DNA of 64,000 nucleotides from assembly GCF_001766675.1 (NCBI RefSeq), contig NZ_MJLT01000023.1, positions 248,001 through 312,000 of the forward strand, given 5' to 3'. The DNA comes from Arthrobacter sp. SW1. GTDB taxonomy: Bacteria > Actinomycetota > Actinomycetes > Actinomycetales > Micrococcaceae. Below the pieces are notes generated by a model that saw only the letters and a list, made by a program, of their open reading frames with translations, was not told the DNA's origin and ran no database searches. A program made the position numbers and the translations under genes. Of the stretch, positions 2,312 to 48,206 are shown in pieces (the stretch's first letter is position 1; every line of letters begins with the position of its first letter).

Positions 2312-4429
2312 CTAGGCATGCCCGGCAGACTGCATCTGGCGCAGTTCACGCTTGAGTTCACCCACCTCGTCGCGCAGCCGGGCGGCGAGTTCGAACTGCA
2401 GCTCCGCGGCAGCGGCATGCATCTGCTCGGTGAGCTGCTCAATAAGGCCCACCAGGTCCTCGGCCGGAGCGGCAGCGAGTCCGTCGCTGCGTACCGTGGC
2501 CGCACCCTTCTTGGCCCCCTTGGCACCCTTCGCGGAGGCGATGCCGCGCTTGCCCTTGCCATAATCGAAGCCGCCCAGCAGTGCGTCGGTGTCGGCGTCT
2601 TCCCTGGCCAGCTGGTCCGTGATGTCCGCGATCCGCTTGCGCAGCGGCTGGGGATCGATCCCGTTCTCCTGGTTGTACTTCACCTGGATCGCACGGCGGC
2701 GGTTGGTTTCCTCGATCGCGTGCGCCATGGAATCGGTGATCTTGTCCGCGTACATGTGGACCTGGCCGGACACGTTTCGTGCTGCACGGCCGATGGTCTG
2801 GATGAGTGAGGTGGACGAACGAAGGAAGCCTTCCTTGTCCGCGTCCAGGATGCTCACCAGGGAGACTTCCGGCAGGTCCAGGCCTTCACGGAGGAGGTTG
2901 ATGCCCACCAGGACGTCGAAGACGCCGAGCCGCAGCTCACGGAGCAGCTCGACGCGGCGCAGGGTGTCGACGTCGGAGTGCAGGTACTGGACCTTGACCC
3001 CGTGACCGAGCAGGTAGTCGGTGAGGTCCTCGGCCATGCGCTTGGTGAGCGTGGTGACCAGGACGCGCTCGTCCCGTTCCACGCGGGTACGGATCTCGCC
3101 GAGGAGGTCGTCGATCTGGCCCTTGGTCGGCTTCACGATCACCTCGGGGTCGATCAGGCCGGTGGGACGGATGATCTGCTGCACGTAGCCGTCCGCCTTG
3201 CCGAGTTCGTACTTGCCCGGGGTGGCGGAGAGGTAGACGGTCTGGCCGATGCGTTCCAGGAATTCATCCCACTTCAACGGCCGGTTATCCATGGCCGAGG
3301 GCAGCCGGAAGCCGTGGTCCACGAGGGTGCGCTTCCGGGACATGTCGCCTTCGTACATGGCACCGATCTGCGGCACGGTGACGTGCGATTCGTCGATGAC
3401 CAGCAGGAAGTCGTCCGGGAAGTAGTCCAGGAGGCAGTGCGGGGCGGAGCCCGCCCCGCGCCCGTCGATGTGCCGGGAGTAGTTCTCGATGCCGTTGCAG
3501 AAGCCCATCTGCTGCATCATTTCGAGGTCGTAGGTGGTTCGCATGCGCAGTCGCTGGGCTTCGACCAGCTTGTTCTGGCCTTCCAGGACCTTCAGCCGCT
3601 CTGCCAGTTCGTCCTCGATTGCCTTGATGGCCCGGCTCATCCGTTCCGGACCGGCAACATAGTGCGAGGCCGGGAAGACGTACATCTCGGTCTCTTCGCG
3701 GATCACGTCGCCGGTGACCGGATGCAGGGTGTAGATGTTCTCGATCTCATCGCCGAAGAACTCGATCCGCAGCGCCAGTTCCTCATACATGGGAATGATC
3801 TCCACGGTGTCGCCCCGCACTCGGAAGGTGCCGCGGTGGAAGTCCATGTCGTTGCGGGCGTATTGCATGGAGACGAACTTCCGGAGGAGGTCGTCCCGGT
3901 TCATTTCTGCGCCCTTGCGGAGCGTGACCATGCCCGCGATGTACTCTTCCGGCGTGCCGAGGCCATAAATGCAGGACACCGTGGCGACCACCACGACGTC
4001 GCGCCGGGTGAGCAGCGCGTTGGTGGCCGAGTGCCGGAGACGTTCCACTTCCTCGTTGATGGAGGAGTCCTTCTCGATGAAGGTGTCCGTCTGCGGGACG
4101 TACGCCTCGGGCTGGTAGTAGTCGTAGTAGGAAACGAAGTATTCCACCGCGTTGTTGGGCAGCAGCTCCCGGAATTCGTTGGCCAGCTGCGCCGCGAGGG
4201 TCTTGTTCTGCACCAGCACCAGGGTGGGGCGCTGCACCTGTTCGATCAGCCAGGCCGTGGTGGCGCTCTTGCCGGTGCCGGTGGCGCCAAGCAGCACAAC
4301 GTCCTTTTCACCGTTGTTGATGCGTTCGGTCAGCTCCGCGATGGCGGTCGGCTGGTCACCCGCCGGCTGGTATTCGCTGACGACTTCGAAGGGCGCGACG
4401 ACTCGGTTGATTTCCTGGGCGAGGCTCAT
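2312..4429 (-). CDS. uvrB: UvrABC excision nuclease subunit B
   Basis: 705 residues, the normal UvrB length. Walker A GATGTGKS lies at 48-55, the damage-probing beta-hairpin ([12 protein letters not shown] and following) at about 101-135, the DESH box near 345, and TIGRAARN marks the last helicase motif. A C-terminal UVR motif for UvrC contact is at about 660-695 ([19 protein letters not shown]). UvrB loads onto lesions with UvrA and recruits UvrC in nucleotide excision repair. The ATG at 4429 is preceded by TAGATT with a 6-nt gap, so the message is probably leaderless. An unusual palindrome sits just upstream, over the promoter (see that entry). coaE lies upstream on the same strand. Confidence 0.98.
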
Positions 4430-8232: not shown

Positions 8233-9165
8233 CTACACCAGCCGCGCGCCCACCTCCGCGAGGTGCGCAAACTCCACTCCGCGCTCCAGCAGTTTCGGTA
8301 AGGCGGCCGCGTAACCGGCCGCGGTTCCGCCGTCCGGGCGGTTGAAGTGCGCGATCACGATGTCTCCGCCCCGCACCCCGGCCAGCGCAGCGGCGACCTC
8401 TGACGCAGCGAAGGTGGCTCCGGCGTCGCCGTTCACACTGAAGTTCACCGGCACCTGGCCGAGTTTCCGCGCGATGGCGGCCGCGACGTCGTCGTAATGG
8501 GCCGTCCCGGAGCGGAAGAAGCCGCACGGCTTGCCGCTGAGCTTTTCCAGCACCGCCTGGTTGCCGGTCAGTTCGTCGTACACCGCGCCGACGTCCGTGG
8601 TTCCGGGAATTCCATAAGCCTGCCGCCCGTCCACGGACAGCGGCAGGTGCGCGGTGCCGTGGTTGGCGAGCTCGAACAATGGCTCCTTGGCCAGCCCGGC
8701 GGCCAGTGCCGGATTGGCCGCGATCCAGCGTCCGTTGAGGAACAGCGTGGCCGGCACCTTCAACTCGCGGAGGGTGTCGAGGAGCCGTTCGTCGCAGGCC
8801 GTTCCCCCGGGTCCGCCGCAGGCATCGAAGGTCAGGACCGCCTTCGAACTGGTGCTGCGGGTGGCGACCCCCGGGACTTCCAAACCCCACTGCACCGGCC
8901 GCCGGCCACCGAACGCCGCGACGACGGACGCCCGGGACGGCAACGGCGGCCTGCTGGCTGCCGTCGGGGTGGCGGGCGCAGTGCGGACCGGTGCCGCCGC
9001 CGTCGGCCGGGCGGAAGGAACGGACGACGGCGGCGCGGGCACGGGCGGTTCCGGTGCCGTTCCGCTGCCCGAGCAGGCAGTGGCGGCACTGACAGCCATG
9101 CCTGCGGCGGCGAAGAGAACAGTGCGGCGGCCGGGCAGCCCGGCACCGGTGATGGAGTCCCCCAT
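8233..9165 (-). CDS. NodB-type polysaccharide deacetylase lipoprotein
   Basis: 310 residues. The N-terminus has paired arginines and a hydrophobic stretch ending in a lipobox-like ATAC (Cys31), followed by a Pro/Ala/Thr-rich linker to about residue 90, so it is probably an anchored exported enzyme. The NodB fold is shown by TFDACGG (112-118, catalytic Asp) and NHGTAH (168-173, the two zinc-ligand histidines spaced H-x3-H). DACGG in place of the usual DDGP places it in a divergent actinobacterial subfamily. It may de-N-acetylate peptidoglycan or another cell-wall glycan. The ATG at 9165 has AGGA about 5 nt upstream. The Eis-like gene upstream is on the same strand with a 54-nt gap. Confidence 0.85.
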   Translation of the reverse strand: MGDSITGAGLPGRRTVLFAAAGMAVSAATACSGSGTAPEPPVPAPPSSVPSARPTAAAPVRTAPATPTAASRPPLPSRASVVAAFGGRRPVQWGLEVPGVATRSTSSKAVLTFDACGGPGGTACDERLLDTLRELKVPATLFLNGRWIAANPALAAGLAKEPLFELANHGTAHLPLSVDGRQAYGIPGTTDVGAVYDELTGNQAVLEKLSGKPCGFFRSGTAHYDDVAAAIARKLGQVPVNFSVNGDAGATFAASEVAAALAGVRGGDIVIAHFNRPDGGTAAGYAAALPKLLERGVEFAHLAEVGARLV

Positions 9166-43477: not shown

Positions 43478-44491
43478 TCAGTCCCGGAGCAGGTCCGCGT
43501 GCTGGGCGGCGACGACGTTCGGGTGGGCCCGCATGCGGTAGCGCAGGGCGTTGTCCCCGTAGGTTTCCAGGATGGGGCTGTTGGTAGGGTCCACCGAGAG
43601 CCCACGGGCCCGGGCCTGGAATTCCGGGCTGACGGCGAGCTGCGGCATGCGTGCGTCGAGGGCCGGGTTGTAGAAGAACGGCAGGGAGATCCGGTCCGTG
43701 CCCCGCAGCGGCGAGATGACCCGGTGCAGGGTGGCCTTGAGGTAGCCGTTGGTGGCGAGCTCCAGCATTTCGCCGATGTTCACCACGAAGCTGCCGGGGA
43801 CCTGCGGGGCGTCGATCCAGTCGCCGTCGTGTTCCACCTGCAGCCCGCCCTTGCCCGGTTCCACCAGCAGCAGGGTCAGCACGCCGCCGTCGCGGTGCGA
43901 ACCCACGCCCTGCTTGGGATCCGGATCGGATTCCCCCGGGTAGCGGACGATCTTCAGGACCGGGAACGCCCGGGCGGCAAAGGCTTCGTCGAAGGTGTCT
44001 TCCGGGGCGCCCAGGGAGACCGCGAGCGCGCGCAGCAGCTCCAGCGAGACGGCGCTCAGCCGTTCCATCCATTCGGCCACGATGCCCCGCATTTCGGGCA
44101 GCGCCTCCGGCCAGAGGTTGGGGCCTTCCAGCCGCCAGTAATCGGCGACGCCGGGCCCCGGCGCCACTGGGTCCCGTTCGACCCCGATATCGATCTGTTC
44201 GCGCCAGTCCACGGCGCCGGCGGTCAGCTCACCGCCCATCCGGGTGTAGCCGCGGAACTGCGGGCTGTGGATGTTTTCGAGGGCGAGCTTCTGCTCTTCC
44301 GGCAGCTCGAAGAAGCGCCGCGAGACATCGAGGATGGCGTCCGTGAGTTCCTGCGGGATGCCGTGCCCGGACAGGTAGAGGAAACCAACTTCGTGCATGG
44401 CATCCCGGAGCTCGTCGCGGAACCGGGCCGCCTCTTCCGGACCCGCGTGCAGGCGGGAGAAATCAAGGACGGGCAGGGTTTCGAGCGACAT
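43478..44491 (-). CDS. 2-oxoglutarate/Fe(II) oxygenase, isopenicillin N synthase-like
   Basis: 337 residues. N-terminal DIOX_N: LPVLDFSRLH...VGFLYLSGHGIPQELTDAILDVSRRFFELP. The catalytic fold has GSHRDGG (His and Asp ligands near 210) and ATLHRVISP (second His near 268), followed by RISLPFFYNP where Arg binds 2-oxoglutarate. Plant and bacterial relatives include ethylene-forming, flavonoid and gibberellin-type oxygenases; the substrate is unknown. ATG 44491 has AAGGAG 8 nt upstream. The iron box of the ABC operon lies just after its stop, and it needs Fe(II) itself. Confidence 0.9.
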   Translation of the reverse strand: MSLETLPVLDFSRLHAGPEEAARFRDELRDAMHEVGFLYLSGHGIPQELTDAILDVSRRFFELPEEQKLALENIHSPQFRGYTRMGGELTAGAVDWREQIDIGVERDPVAPGPGVADYWRLEGPNLWPEALPEMRGIVAEWMERLSAVSLELLRALAVSLGAPEDTFDEAFAARAFPVLKIVRYPGESDPDPKQGVGSHRDGGVLTLLLVEPGKGGLQVEHDGDWIDAPQVPGSFVVNIGEMLELATNGYLKATLHRVISPLRGTDRISLPFFYNPALDARMPQLAVSPEFQARARGLSVDPTNSPILETYGDNALRYRMRAHPNVVAAQHADLLRD

Positions 44492-44638
44492 TTCCGGGCT
44501 CCTTCCGGAGGGCTTCACAGCCGAACGCGTGTAGTGGCACCAATACTACGGAGCGAAACCGGGCGTTGCCACGAATCCCCGGCCGCGTTGCTAGCGTTGA
44601 AGGCCCATCCGAAATCACTCCGGCAGAAAGCAGCCTCC

Positions 44639-45916
44639 ATGACGTCAGCAGCCCCGGCTTCAGAGCTGGCCCCGCGCACCCGCCGGACGGCGCCGGATCC
44701 CCGCCTGCTGCTGGCCAGCCAGCTGATCTTCAACATCGGTTTCTTCTCCGTGGTGCCCTTTCTTGCCACCGTCATGCGGGACGATTTCGGCATGGGCGCG
44801 CTCGCCGTCGGCGTTGTCCTGGGTGCCCGGACCTTCGCGCAGCAGGGGATGTTCCTCTTCGGCGGCGCACTGGCCGACCGTTGGGGCGCGCGCCGCTCCA
44901 TGGTCACCGGAACCCTGGTCCGGGTCACCGGATACCTCCTGCTGGCGTGGGCCACGGACTTCCCCACGTTCCTGGCGGGTGCGATCGTCACCGGGATCGG
45001 CGGTGCCCTCTTCTCCCCCGCGCTCGAGAGCCTCCTCGCCACCGCCGAAGCCGCGCGCAAAGCCGGCGCAGGCCACAAGACCAGCCTGTTCACCCTCCTG
45101 GTGATCTGCGGGGAAACGGGCGCGGTGACCGGCCCGCTGCTCGGCTCGCTGCTCCTGGGAATCGGCTTCGACGCCGCGCTGCTGGCGGGAGCGGCGGTGT
45201 TCGCGGTGATGGCCGCCGTCTTCCACCGATTCCTGCCCGCACACCGGCCGGCCACAACGAAAGCAGGCCCTGCCGACGGCACGAACCGGCCCGCCCGGGC
45301 AACCCCGTCGGGCGCGTGGTCCTGCCTGCGGGAGCGCCGCTTCGTGCTGTTCGCGGCGTTCTACAGCGTGAACCTGCTCGCCTACAACCAGCTCTATTTC
45401 GGCCTGACGGTGGAACTCGAACGCAGCGGTGCGGACACCGGCGCGCTCGGACTCCTGTTTTCCTGCGCCTCCGTGATGACCATCGCCTTGCAGTGGCCTG
45501 TGTCGAAGCTGGTGCGGCGCATGGGCCGGACGCCGGCGTTCGCGATCGGCTTCGGCCTCCAGGGTGCCGGGTTCGCCGCACTCGCGGCCTTCGCAACGCA
45601 GCCCCCGGGCGCGGCGCCGATCGTGCCCGCCCTGGTGATGGTGGCGGCACTGTGCCTCGGCCACATGTTCGTGACTCCGCTGGCCATGGGCCTGGTAATC
45701 GATTTCGCCGCCGGCCGGCCCAGCGGCGCCTACTACGGCCTGCTTGCCAGCAGCGGCGGCGTGATGGTCCTGCTCGGCAACGCCGTGCTCGGCCCGCTCT
45801 ACGAATTCGCGCGGACGCCGTCGCCGGCGGCCGCGGCGCCCTGGCTGCTGATGGCGGCTTTCACCGCCGTGTCCGCGGTGTTCCTGCCCCGCTGCCTGCC
45901 GCTTCCCCGGAGCTAA
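44639..45916 (+). CDS. MFS transporter
   Basis: 425 residues with twelve helices. Loop 2-3 reads GGALADRWGARRSMVTGT, the MFS signature, with its relative GWPVSKLVRRMGRTPAFAIG in the second half. It has the layout of the MdtG/YceL-type drug exporters. ATG 44639 has no strong ribosome site; TAGCGT 44 nt upstream is a possible -10. It faces away from the oxygenase gene, and its stop overlaps that of the NodB-GT gene (shared ctaa). Confidence 0.88.
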   Translation: MTSAAPASELAPRTRRTAPDPRLLLASQLIFNIGFFSVVPFLATVMRDDFGMGALAVGVVLGARTFAQQGMFLFGGALADRWGARRSMVTGTLVRVTGYLLLAWATDFPTFLAGAIVTGIGGALFSPALESLLATAEAARKAGAGHKTSLFTLLVICGETGAVTGPLLGSLLLGIGFDAALLAGAAVFAVMAAVFHRFLPAHRPATTKAGPADGTNRPARATPSGAWSCLRERRFVLFAAFYSVNLLAYNQLYFGLTVELERSGADTGALGLLFSCASVMTIALQWPVSKLVRRMGRTPAFAIGFGLQGAGFAALAAFATQPPGAAPIVPALVMVAALCLGHMFVTPLAMGLVIDFAAGRPSGAYYGLLASSGGVMVLLGNAVLGPLYEFARTPSPAAAAPWLLMAAFTAVSAVFLPRCLPLPRS

Positions 45917-47718
45917 CTCTCCGCCTGGGCCGCGCCCGGGCCGGCCGGCGGGACGCGCAGGCTGCCGTAGCGTTCCATCCTGTGCCAGCGCAGCCGGACC
46001 CCGGTGAGGGCGGTGACCACCGACTGGATCACCACCAGGTACATGAGCTGCCGGTAGACGAACTGCTGGAGCGGAAGCGTCCACAGCGGCCGGAGCGGTT
46101 CCCTGTCCAGGCGGAAGGCGTAGGCAGCCATAAGGAACTGGACCAGCAGGAAGGCGAGCCAGAGGGCGGCGATCCGGACCGGGTCCAGGAAGATCAGTCC
46201 ATAGACGGCGAACACGTCGACCACGGGCGCGAACAGCGGGAGCAGCACCTGCAGGACCAACAGGTACCCCAGCCCGCGCCGGCCGAGCTTGCCGGCAGCC
46301 CCGCGCTGCACGACGGCGCCCCGGTGCTTCCACATGGCCTGCAGGGTGCCGTAGCACCAGCGGTAGCGCTGGCGCCAGAGCGCCCCGAGGCTGGCCGGCG
46401 CCTCGGTCCAGGCACGCGCGTCGTCCTGGTAGACCACGCGCCAGCCGGCGCGGCAGAGGGACATGGTGAGGTCGGTGTCCTCGGCGAGGGTGTCGTCACT
46501 GATGCCGCCCAGCTGCAGCAGCGCGTCGCGCCGGAAAGCACCGATCGCGCCGGGGACAGTCGGCATGCACTCGGCCACATCGAAGAGCCGGCGGTCCAGG
46601 TTGAAGCCGACGACGTACTCGATGTGCTGCCATGCCCCCAGGATTCCGCCCCGGTTGGCCACCTTGGTGTTGCCCGATACCGCGCCCACCATCGGATCGG
46701 CGAGCGGCTGCACGAGGGCCCGGACCGTGTCCGGTTCGAAGACGGTGTCGCCGTCGACCATCACCACCAGCTCGTGGCTGGCCGCGCGCGTGCCGCCGGC
46801 CTGCTCAGCGGCGCTCGCCTCGCGCATGCTCGCGATGCCGACGGCGTCGCCGACCGTGGTCACGCGGTACCCGCCGTCGGCGAGGCGGGCCAGGGAAGCA
46901 TCGAGCGCGGCGACCGTCTGCTCCCGGTTCCCGCCGCCGTCGTGCAGGAGGACCACCTGGCCGTCATTGCCGGGCCGGCTCAGCCGCTTCTCGATCTCTC
47001 CGACGCCCGGCTCCTGCCAGTCCTTGCTGTCGAGGGTGCTGAAAACGGTCAGGTAGCCGGCATCCGCCGCCGCTTCCATGGCCTGCCAGCCGGCGTCGGT
47101 GATGGCCCGGTTGTGGGAGCTGTACGGGGGCCGCAGGAGGGAAACGACCCGCCCGGTGGTTCCGGTGATGGCCTGTTGCGCGCCCTGGAGCTCAAGCTGC
47201 CGCCGCCATCCCGGGGCGCCGGCAAGTTCGGTATGGGTCAGCGTGTGGGCACCGACTTCGTGGCCCTCCTGGACGATCCGGCGCATGAGGTCCGGGTGCT
47301 CGATCGCGGCCGATCCGAGGACGAAGAAAGTGGCGCGGACATGGTGCTTGCGGAGGACGTCGAGGATCCTGGGTGTCCACACGGGGTCCGGGCCGTCGTC
47401 GAACGTCAGGGCGAGGGTGCGGTCCGCCGGCCGCGCGGTCCTGACGGTTCCGCCGCGGGAGTCGACCACGGGACCGCCCTGGGAAACCGCCTTCGGCACT
47501 GAGTCTGCGGTTACGGGGCCTGCGGTTGCGGCGCCTGCGGTTGCGGGGCCCGGCGTCCCGGCCGCCTGGCGGGAATCGTCGGCCGCTCCGGCGAGGTGAT
47601 GCATGTAGCCCTGCACGGTGAGTGCGGCAGCGAGGGCGAGGACGCATGCAAGGAGGATGAACCAGTGCGCCTTGGCGGCTGCCGGGGCGGTGCGCCGGGC
47701 AGCCCGGCGGGCGGTCAC
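45913..47718 (-). CDS. NodB deacetylase-glycosyltransferase 2 fusion with an internal deletion
   Basis: 601 residues; relatives of this layout are 100-150 residues longer. Residues 18-38 form a membrane anchor and 103-290 a NodB domain (LTFDDGPDP, HTLTHTE, RPPYSSHN). A GT2 domain resumes at about 310 with HELVVMVDGDTVFEPD, then EDTDLT near 416 and QRYRW near 441, and three C-terminal helices. The GT2 start (VSVIVPAYNE and the DDGSTD nucleotide-binding part) and the membrane helix that normally separates the domains are absent. Only about 25 residues (291-316) join the halves. The glycosyltransferase is probably inactive and on the wrong side of the membrane. GTG 47718 overlaps the previous stop. 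Confidence 0.85.
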   Translation of the reverse strand: MTARRAARRTAPAAAKAHWFILLACVLALAAALTVQGYMHHLAGAADDSRQAAGTPGPATAGAATAGPVTADSVPKAVSQGGPVVDSRGGTVRTARPADRTLALTFDDGPDPVWTPRILDVLRKHHVRATFFVLGSAAIEHPDLMRRIVQEGHEVGAHTLTHTELAGAPGWRRQLELQGAQQAITGTTGRVVSLLRPPYSSHNRAITDAGWQAMEAAADAGYLTVFSTLDSKDWQEPGVGEIEKRLSRPGNDGQVVLLHDGGGNREQTVAALDASLARLADGGYRVTTVGDAVGIASMREASAAEQAGGTRAASHELVVMVDGDTVFEPDTVRALVQPLADPMVGAVSGNTKVANRGGILGAWQHIEYVVGFNLDRRLFDVAECMPTVPGAIGAFRRDALLQLGGISDDTLAEDTDLTMSLCRAGWRVVYQDDARAWTEAPASLGALWRQRYRWCYGTLQAMWKHRGAVVQRGAAGKLGRRGLGYLLVLQVLLPLFAPVVDVFAVYGLIFLDPVRIAALWLAFLLVQFLMAAYAFRLDREPLRPLWTLPLQQFVYRQLMYLVVIQSVVTALTGVRLRWHRMERYGSLRVPPAGPGAAQAES

Positions 47719-48206
47719 TGGCCCTTCGGGCCGGACGGACGCTTGGCCTGGCCCGGGGCCGTGTCGCTCTTGCCCTTGCCCGCATCCGCGCCGCCGGCGG
47801 CATCCGCGGCACTGCCGGGGGTGGTGGCGGAAGGAGCGGGGTTACCGGTGGCCTGCGGGGCCGGCACCGACTCGGACGGCGGCGCGGCCGGGAGATCCTG
47901 GGCCGGAACTGGCTGCGCGGGGACGGAAGGGGCTCCGGCGCCGCTTGGGGACGGCGCCGGTGTACCCGTGGAGGACCCGGGAGCCGCTGCGGGCAGCGCG
48001 GGCAGCGGAAGGTAGGGTGCGCCGATATTGGGACCTCCGCTCACGGCCACCACCAGGAGGGCCATGTATCCGGCCACGAGCCCGAGGGCTCCGAGGCCCA
48101 GCAGCTTCACCCACCGCCGGCGCCTGCCGGAAGAGTCCAGAAACACCGGCCCATGGGGAGGGACGGTGGGCTGCGGCTGGGTGGGAATGTCATCGAAAGA
48201 GGTCAT
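47715..48206 (-). CDS. Membrane-anchored Pro/Ala-rich protein, partner of the NodB-GT gene
   Basis: 163 residues. A short cytoplasmic N-terminus (TSFDDIPTQPQPTVPPHG) is followed by RRRRWVKLLGLGALGLVAGYMALLVVAVSGGP, a single membrane helix. The extracytoplasmic part is a low-complexity Pro/Ala/Ser/Gly region ending in basic residues. It overlaps the NodB-GT gene by 4 nt. Genes of this kind precede NodB-GT fusions in other Actinobacteria, so it is likely a membrane partner; the function is unknown. Confidence 0.75.
   Translation of the reverse strand: MTSFDDIPTQPQPTVPPHGPVFLDSSGRRRRWVKLLGLGALGLVAGYMALLVVAVSGGPNIGAPYLPLPALPAAAPGSSTGTPAPSPSGAGAPSVPAQPVPAQDLPAAPPSESVPAPQATGNPAPSATTPGSAADAAGGADAGKGKSDTAPGQAKRPSGPKGQ

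Follow-up and report, generated by a model that had tools for sequence, protein, structure and literature searches.

The window analyzed here, a stretch of 64,000 nucleotides from Arthrobacter sp. SW1, encodes on its minus strand (45913–47718) a matB-like gene from which 420 nucleotides are missing in frame. Most probably, this is a recent loss-of-function deletion in a MatB-type PNAG synthase/deacetylase gene of this soil bacterium, as a result of which synthesis of PNAG, a sticky polymer of the cell surface, would have been lost. Taken together, the data are best read as a PNAG synthase allele that has recently lost its function, although an earlier note on this DNA, which pointed out the deletion, did not put this reading first.

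The deletion and the lost segment

The open reading frame starts with GTG, encodes a protein of 601 amino acids and contains no internal stop codons or frameshifts. Two domains are recognized in the product, NodB/CE4 (PF01522, E-value 1.9e-34; 118.7 bits against a cut-off of 23.1), with the match ending upstream of residue 290, and a GT2 glycosyltransferase domain (PF13632, E-value 5.1e-32). Protein and DNA alignments place the deletion junction between T310 (46789–46791) and R311 (46786–46788), that is, at 46786–46791 of the minus strand, and the DNA alignment with the three nearest species breaks at 46785/46789. This position lies inside the interval 46771–46848, where the earlier note had located an in-frame deletion in a NodB-glycosyltransferase fusion. 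The alignment to full-length homologues that the note had proposed as a check bears out this claim: all 24 close relatives aligned contain exactly 420 additional nucleotides (140 residues), in frame, at 46788/46789, and in four more distantly related NodB-GT2 fusion proteins the surplus at the junction is 393 nucleotides. Given that the sequence on either side can be aligned with the relatives from the genus, at 65–71% identity for the NodB part and mostly 87–93% for the GT2 part, the gap is not due to chance.

In the numbering of the full-length relative L061, the lost residues are 296–435, which comprise the middle membrane helix (314–332 by hydropathy; helix 288–349 in the L061 model), a linker rich in basic residues and some 72 residues of the GT2 domain. 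The lost portion of the GT2 domain includes the first three strands of the GT fold (365–371, 392–398 and 417–421 in the L061 model), the nucleotide-sugar Asp motif VVDDGS and the motif NGGKPSALN, together with D398, D399, G426 and K427, each conserved in at least 90% of the 32 aligned proteins. The deleted segment holds the start of the GT2 domain, so the GT2 profiles enter the window protein only part-way, at positions 79 (PF13641), 73 (PF00535) and 114 (TIGR03937), compared to positions 2, 1 and 44, respectively, in L061. The earlier note had inferred the loss of a membrane helix and of the first 80–100 residues of the GT2 domain with the Asp motif; the losses of the helix and of the motif are borne out by the alignment and the profile matches, whereas the extent of the GT2 loss proves to be smaller and is accompanied by that of the linker.

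The remainder of the protein is preserved. The N-terminal membrane helix (residues 17–35, window 47614–47670, minus strand) is evident from hydropathy, is preceded by five lysine or arginine residues and appears as helix 14–48 in the AF2 model. The Pfam match to the NodB/CE4 core (47095–47430, minus strand) encompasses the motifs TFDDGPD (47386–47406), HTLTH (47233–47247) and RPPYSS (47116–47133), and DSKDW (47017–47031) and LLHDG (46936–46950) lie just outside of it, all on the minus strand, so that the five CE4 catalytic motifs, including the Asp/His metal site, are all intact. The top structural matches of the window protein model are CE4 deacetylases (best match, 5o6y; E-value 3.2e-17). 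Profiles, alignment, hydropathy and the model concur in delineating a GT2 remnant (45943–46788, minus strand) without strands 1–3 and VVDDGS, in which the DxD motif VDGD (46747–46758), the (T/E)DD motif AEDTD (46471–46485) and the QxxRW motif QRYRW (46357–46371), all on the minus strand, are present and the three C-terminal hydrophobic helices are kept. The AF2 confidence for the remnant (pLDDT of about 54–87 per block, with lower values over the final 30 residues) is biased by the intact relatives in the alignment and is no evidence that the remnant folds.

Under the proposed scenario, a simple 420-bp deletion would have removed the second membrane helix along with the N-terminal half of the GT2 nucleotide-binding fold, rendering the product unable to bind the nucleotide sugar (UDP-sugar) or to polymerize it. 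Since one membrane span is missing, the GT2 remnant would come after the NodB domain on the outer side of the membrane and the C-terminal helices would be in the wrong parity; this is the topology problem raised by the earlier note, which is supported by the hydropathy profile, where the joining helix is absent. The NodB deacetylase might still be produced, anchored by the first helix.

Origin and age of the deletion

The three nearest species, as judged by a neighboring gene (G168, G145 and G127; 85–87% identity), carry matAB at the same syntenic site, flanked, as in the window, by 2OG-oxygenase and TetR/amine-oxidase genes, and in all three the middle region of matB is present. Descent of the window gene from a full-length matB at the same locus is indicated by this synteny and by its position in the tree beside L021 and L024. 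A search of the 205 other genomes of the genus identified the gene region in 37, none of which gives a single unbroken match over the junction. The same holds for the 41 others with the gene region among 395 genomes sampled across the family, a sample that shares genomes with the genus set (206 genomes). The deletion is likewise absent from the 80 public loci that were fetched and checked, in nearly all of which a single match spans the middle; three of these (L110, L120 and L138) have other gaps or frame changes at different sites. One of them, a matB copy from a Micrococcaceae MAG (L110, 1–1435), combines a gap at L061 residues 441–464 with a frame change, which is a different lesion. Because the middle is intact in the nearest species and the deletion is not seen in the other genomes examined, these comparisons indicate that the full-length form is ancestral and the deletion, known from one genome of one strain, is derived. 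The earlier note had regarded relatives with the full middle region as a potential refutation; such relatives exist, at the same locus, but they reveal the direction of the change rather than refute it.

Misassembly, whereby the chromosome would contain the 420 bp and the flanks would have been wrongly joined, was among the explanations offered by the earlier note. The genome sequence is a draft in 69 contigs (4.1 Mb, 99.98% complete), the region is richer in GC than the window as a whole (75.5% vs 67.9%), the deletion occurs in a single genome, and the assembly alone leaves some room for an error of this kind. However, the flanks meet in frame at a clean junction, and the missing piece is on no other contig. 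In the window, the two flanks have no repeat of at least 9 bp in common, and a search for repeats that could mediate recombination at the deletion edges found only out-of-register 6-mers shared by the edges in two relatives; there was, therefore, nothing for a k-mer graph to collapse on. We consider an assembly or sequencing error quite unlikely.

The substitution pattern bears on the age of the deletion. The 284 residues of the GT2 remnant (628 nonsynonymous sites) include only 2 that are private to the window protein with respect to all orthologues and 4 with respect to the genus set. For a remnant that has evolved without constraint from the deletion onward, the age of the deletion has a 95% upper limit of about 0.010–0.015 substitutions per site (a rough Poisson limit that counts all private changes as post-deletion). 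Hence, provided that the remnant is under no constraint at present, its undecayed state implies a young deletion, roughly less than 0.015 substitutions per site. The frame, too, stays open through all 601 codons and shows no second lesion. Together with the scarcity of private residues, this is a counterpoint to loss of function, since a remnant that selection still maintains would explain it as well as a young deletion would.

The NodB half behaves differently. The terminal branch leading to the window protein is of ordinary length for GT2 (0.044) but the longest in the set for NodB (0.318), and pN in the NodB part is 0.198, whereas other pairs of similar pS have 0.129. Within the NodB half (46842–47442), 8 changes fall in columns that are invariant in 24 relatives, against 0–3 for the other proteins. 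This acceleration coexists with intact catalytic motifs; it is a second counterpoint to the loss-of-function reading, in that simple recent loss of the GT2 activity does not account for it.

The earlier note had also proposed a deacetylase with a vestigial tail. A working stand-alone deacetylase that is anchored in the membrane, acts on other polymers of GlcNAc and carries the GT2 remnant along as a passive tail, so that the deletion is tolerated or favored, is structurally possible given the complete set of CE4 motifs, the similarity of the NodB model to solved deacetylases and the retained N-terminal anchor. However, the tail is undecayed and NodB is the faster-changing half, which, to judge from the aligned sequences, is the reverse of the pattern that an old conversion predicts; furthermore, the tail would add hydrophobic helices in the wrong parity, and the genus and family searches revealed no second genome in which such a form is kept. 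This possibility is accordingly rated as unlikely, and its adaptive version, conversion to an anchored extracellular deacetylase maintained by selection, in which the remnant would be refolded or have a use outside the membrane, is very unlikely.

Frame-breaking changes in matB were detected in three other members of the genus: around positions 3291–3300 of L025 (genome G024), around 3297 of L026 (G025) and in the NodB half of L022 (G131). Those in G024 and G025 run in different directions. The gene may have been lost repeatedly in the genus, bearing in mind that single-base frame changes in these drafts can be sequencing errors. In addition to its full-length gene, G150 has a separate 385-aa open frame with an 84% match to the GT2 half (contig C15, 4208–4411).

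Genomic context and expected phenotype

The missing 140 residues (420 nt) were sought in the whole genome, as protein and as DNA, and were not found; the best protein match is an ordinary GT2 (E-value 3.4e-7). The window frame is the only MatB-type protein encoded in the genome, with no second MatB or PgaC detected; no protein reaches the PgaC/IcaA cut-off (422 bits), the best other one scoring 77 bits. Because there is a single MatB and no PgaC-like protein at cut-off, the strain is not expected to have a PNAG-type matrix. The only other polysaccharide deacetylase match to PF01522 in this genome is located in the same window (8233–9165, minus strand; core 8455–8847).

Directly upstream of matB, with an overlap of 4 nt at the matB start, lies a gene in the position of matA (47715–48206, minus strand), which is intact and encodes a protein of 163 aa with one membrane helix predicted by hydropathy. 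The profile searches produced no family match for this protein, and its designation as matA-like comes from comparison with the same-place gene of L061 (47% identity, E-value 3e-33). The intact state of this gene and the conservation of the remnant would fit a functional variant whose truncated GT2 half remains active, for instance, because another protein contributes the missing half. However, half of the nucleotide-binding fold, with three strands and the UDP-binding Asp motif, is gone, as is a membrane helix; the genome does not encode the missing segment at any other place, and none of the other genomes examined shares the deletion. The new variant suggested by the earlier note thus has no support, and we regard a working enzyme of this kind as extremely unlikely.

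Downstream, an MFS-like transporter frame (44566–45916, plus strand; part of the 43499–45916 open reading frame) lies between the 2OG-oxygenase gene and matB, convergent with matB and with overlapping stop codons; the label comes from reading the translation by eye. The insert that contains this frame (44550–45949) is absent in the nearest relatives (positions 44550 and 45949 of the window are 31 bases apart in L167) and is not part of the matB deletion. On the other side, the nearest relatives have about 12 kb between matA and the TetR gene (4500–16900 in L167, with similar spacing in L166 and L168), which in L167 encompasses tad/Flp pilus genes (TadA, TadB/C-like, CpaB and Tad) and a histidine kinase; the window has a cupin gene alone between the matA-position gene and the TetR gene. 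A wholesale loss of adhesion genes was considered on account of this absence and rejected, given that a 70%-identical TadA is encoded on another contig.

Comparison with known polysaccharide synthases

Provided that the deletion is real, the strain represents a naturally occurring matB loss-of-function mutant outside Streptomyces, and work on PNAG in Arthrobacter-type bacteria could use it as a negative control. The gene would also exemplify those that are still labeled deacetylase/glycosyltransferase fusions when annotated by domain matches. Knowledge of the family itself is unchanged: this would be an ordinary loss mutation in a known kind of enzyme.

The full-length L061 aligns with the Chlorella virus hyaluronan synthase (7sp7) and the cellulose synthase BcsA (4p00) over about 435–476 columns; the window protein, in contrast, lacks strands 1–3 of the GT fold and has CE4 deacetylases as its top structural matches. 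PgaC/IcaA (TIGR03937, poly-beta-1,6-GlcNAc synthase) is the best NCBIfam match of the GT2 part and has the same DxD, (T/E)DD and QxxRW motifs, but the window protein scores only 114 bits against the cut-off of 422, with the match starting part-way through the profile. PgaC/IcaA is not known to carry a NodB domain.

The closest known counterpart is MatB of Streptomyces, a PNAG synthase in which an intracellular GT2 and an extracellular CE4 domain are joined by a membrane helix (PMC5972031). MatAB makes PNAG in Streptomyces, and matA, matB and matAB null mutants lose it (PMC5972031); a precedent for loss in PNAG synthase genes comes from S. aureus isolates with mutations in icaA, icaD and icaC (PMC5130281). 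Relatives in Streptomyces reach up to about 79% identity in their best segment. Compared to MatB (SCO2962) and MatA (SCO2963), the window copy has lost the helix that connects the two domains and, with about the first 72 GT2 residues, a complete GT2 domain with VVDDGS, and no icaC-like gene adjoins it, but it shares with them the outside NodB/CE4 domain with all its motifs, a GT2 part with C-terminal helices and the small, matA-like gene directly upstream.
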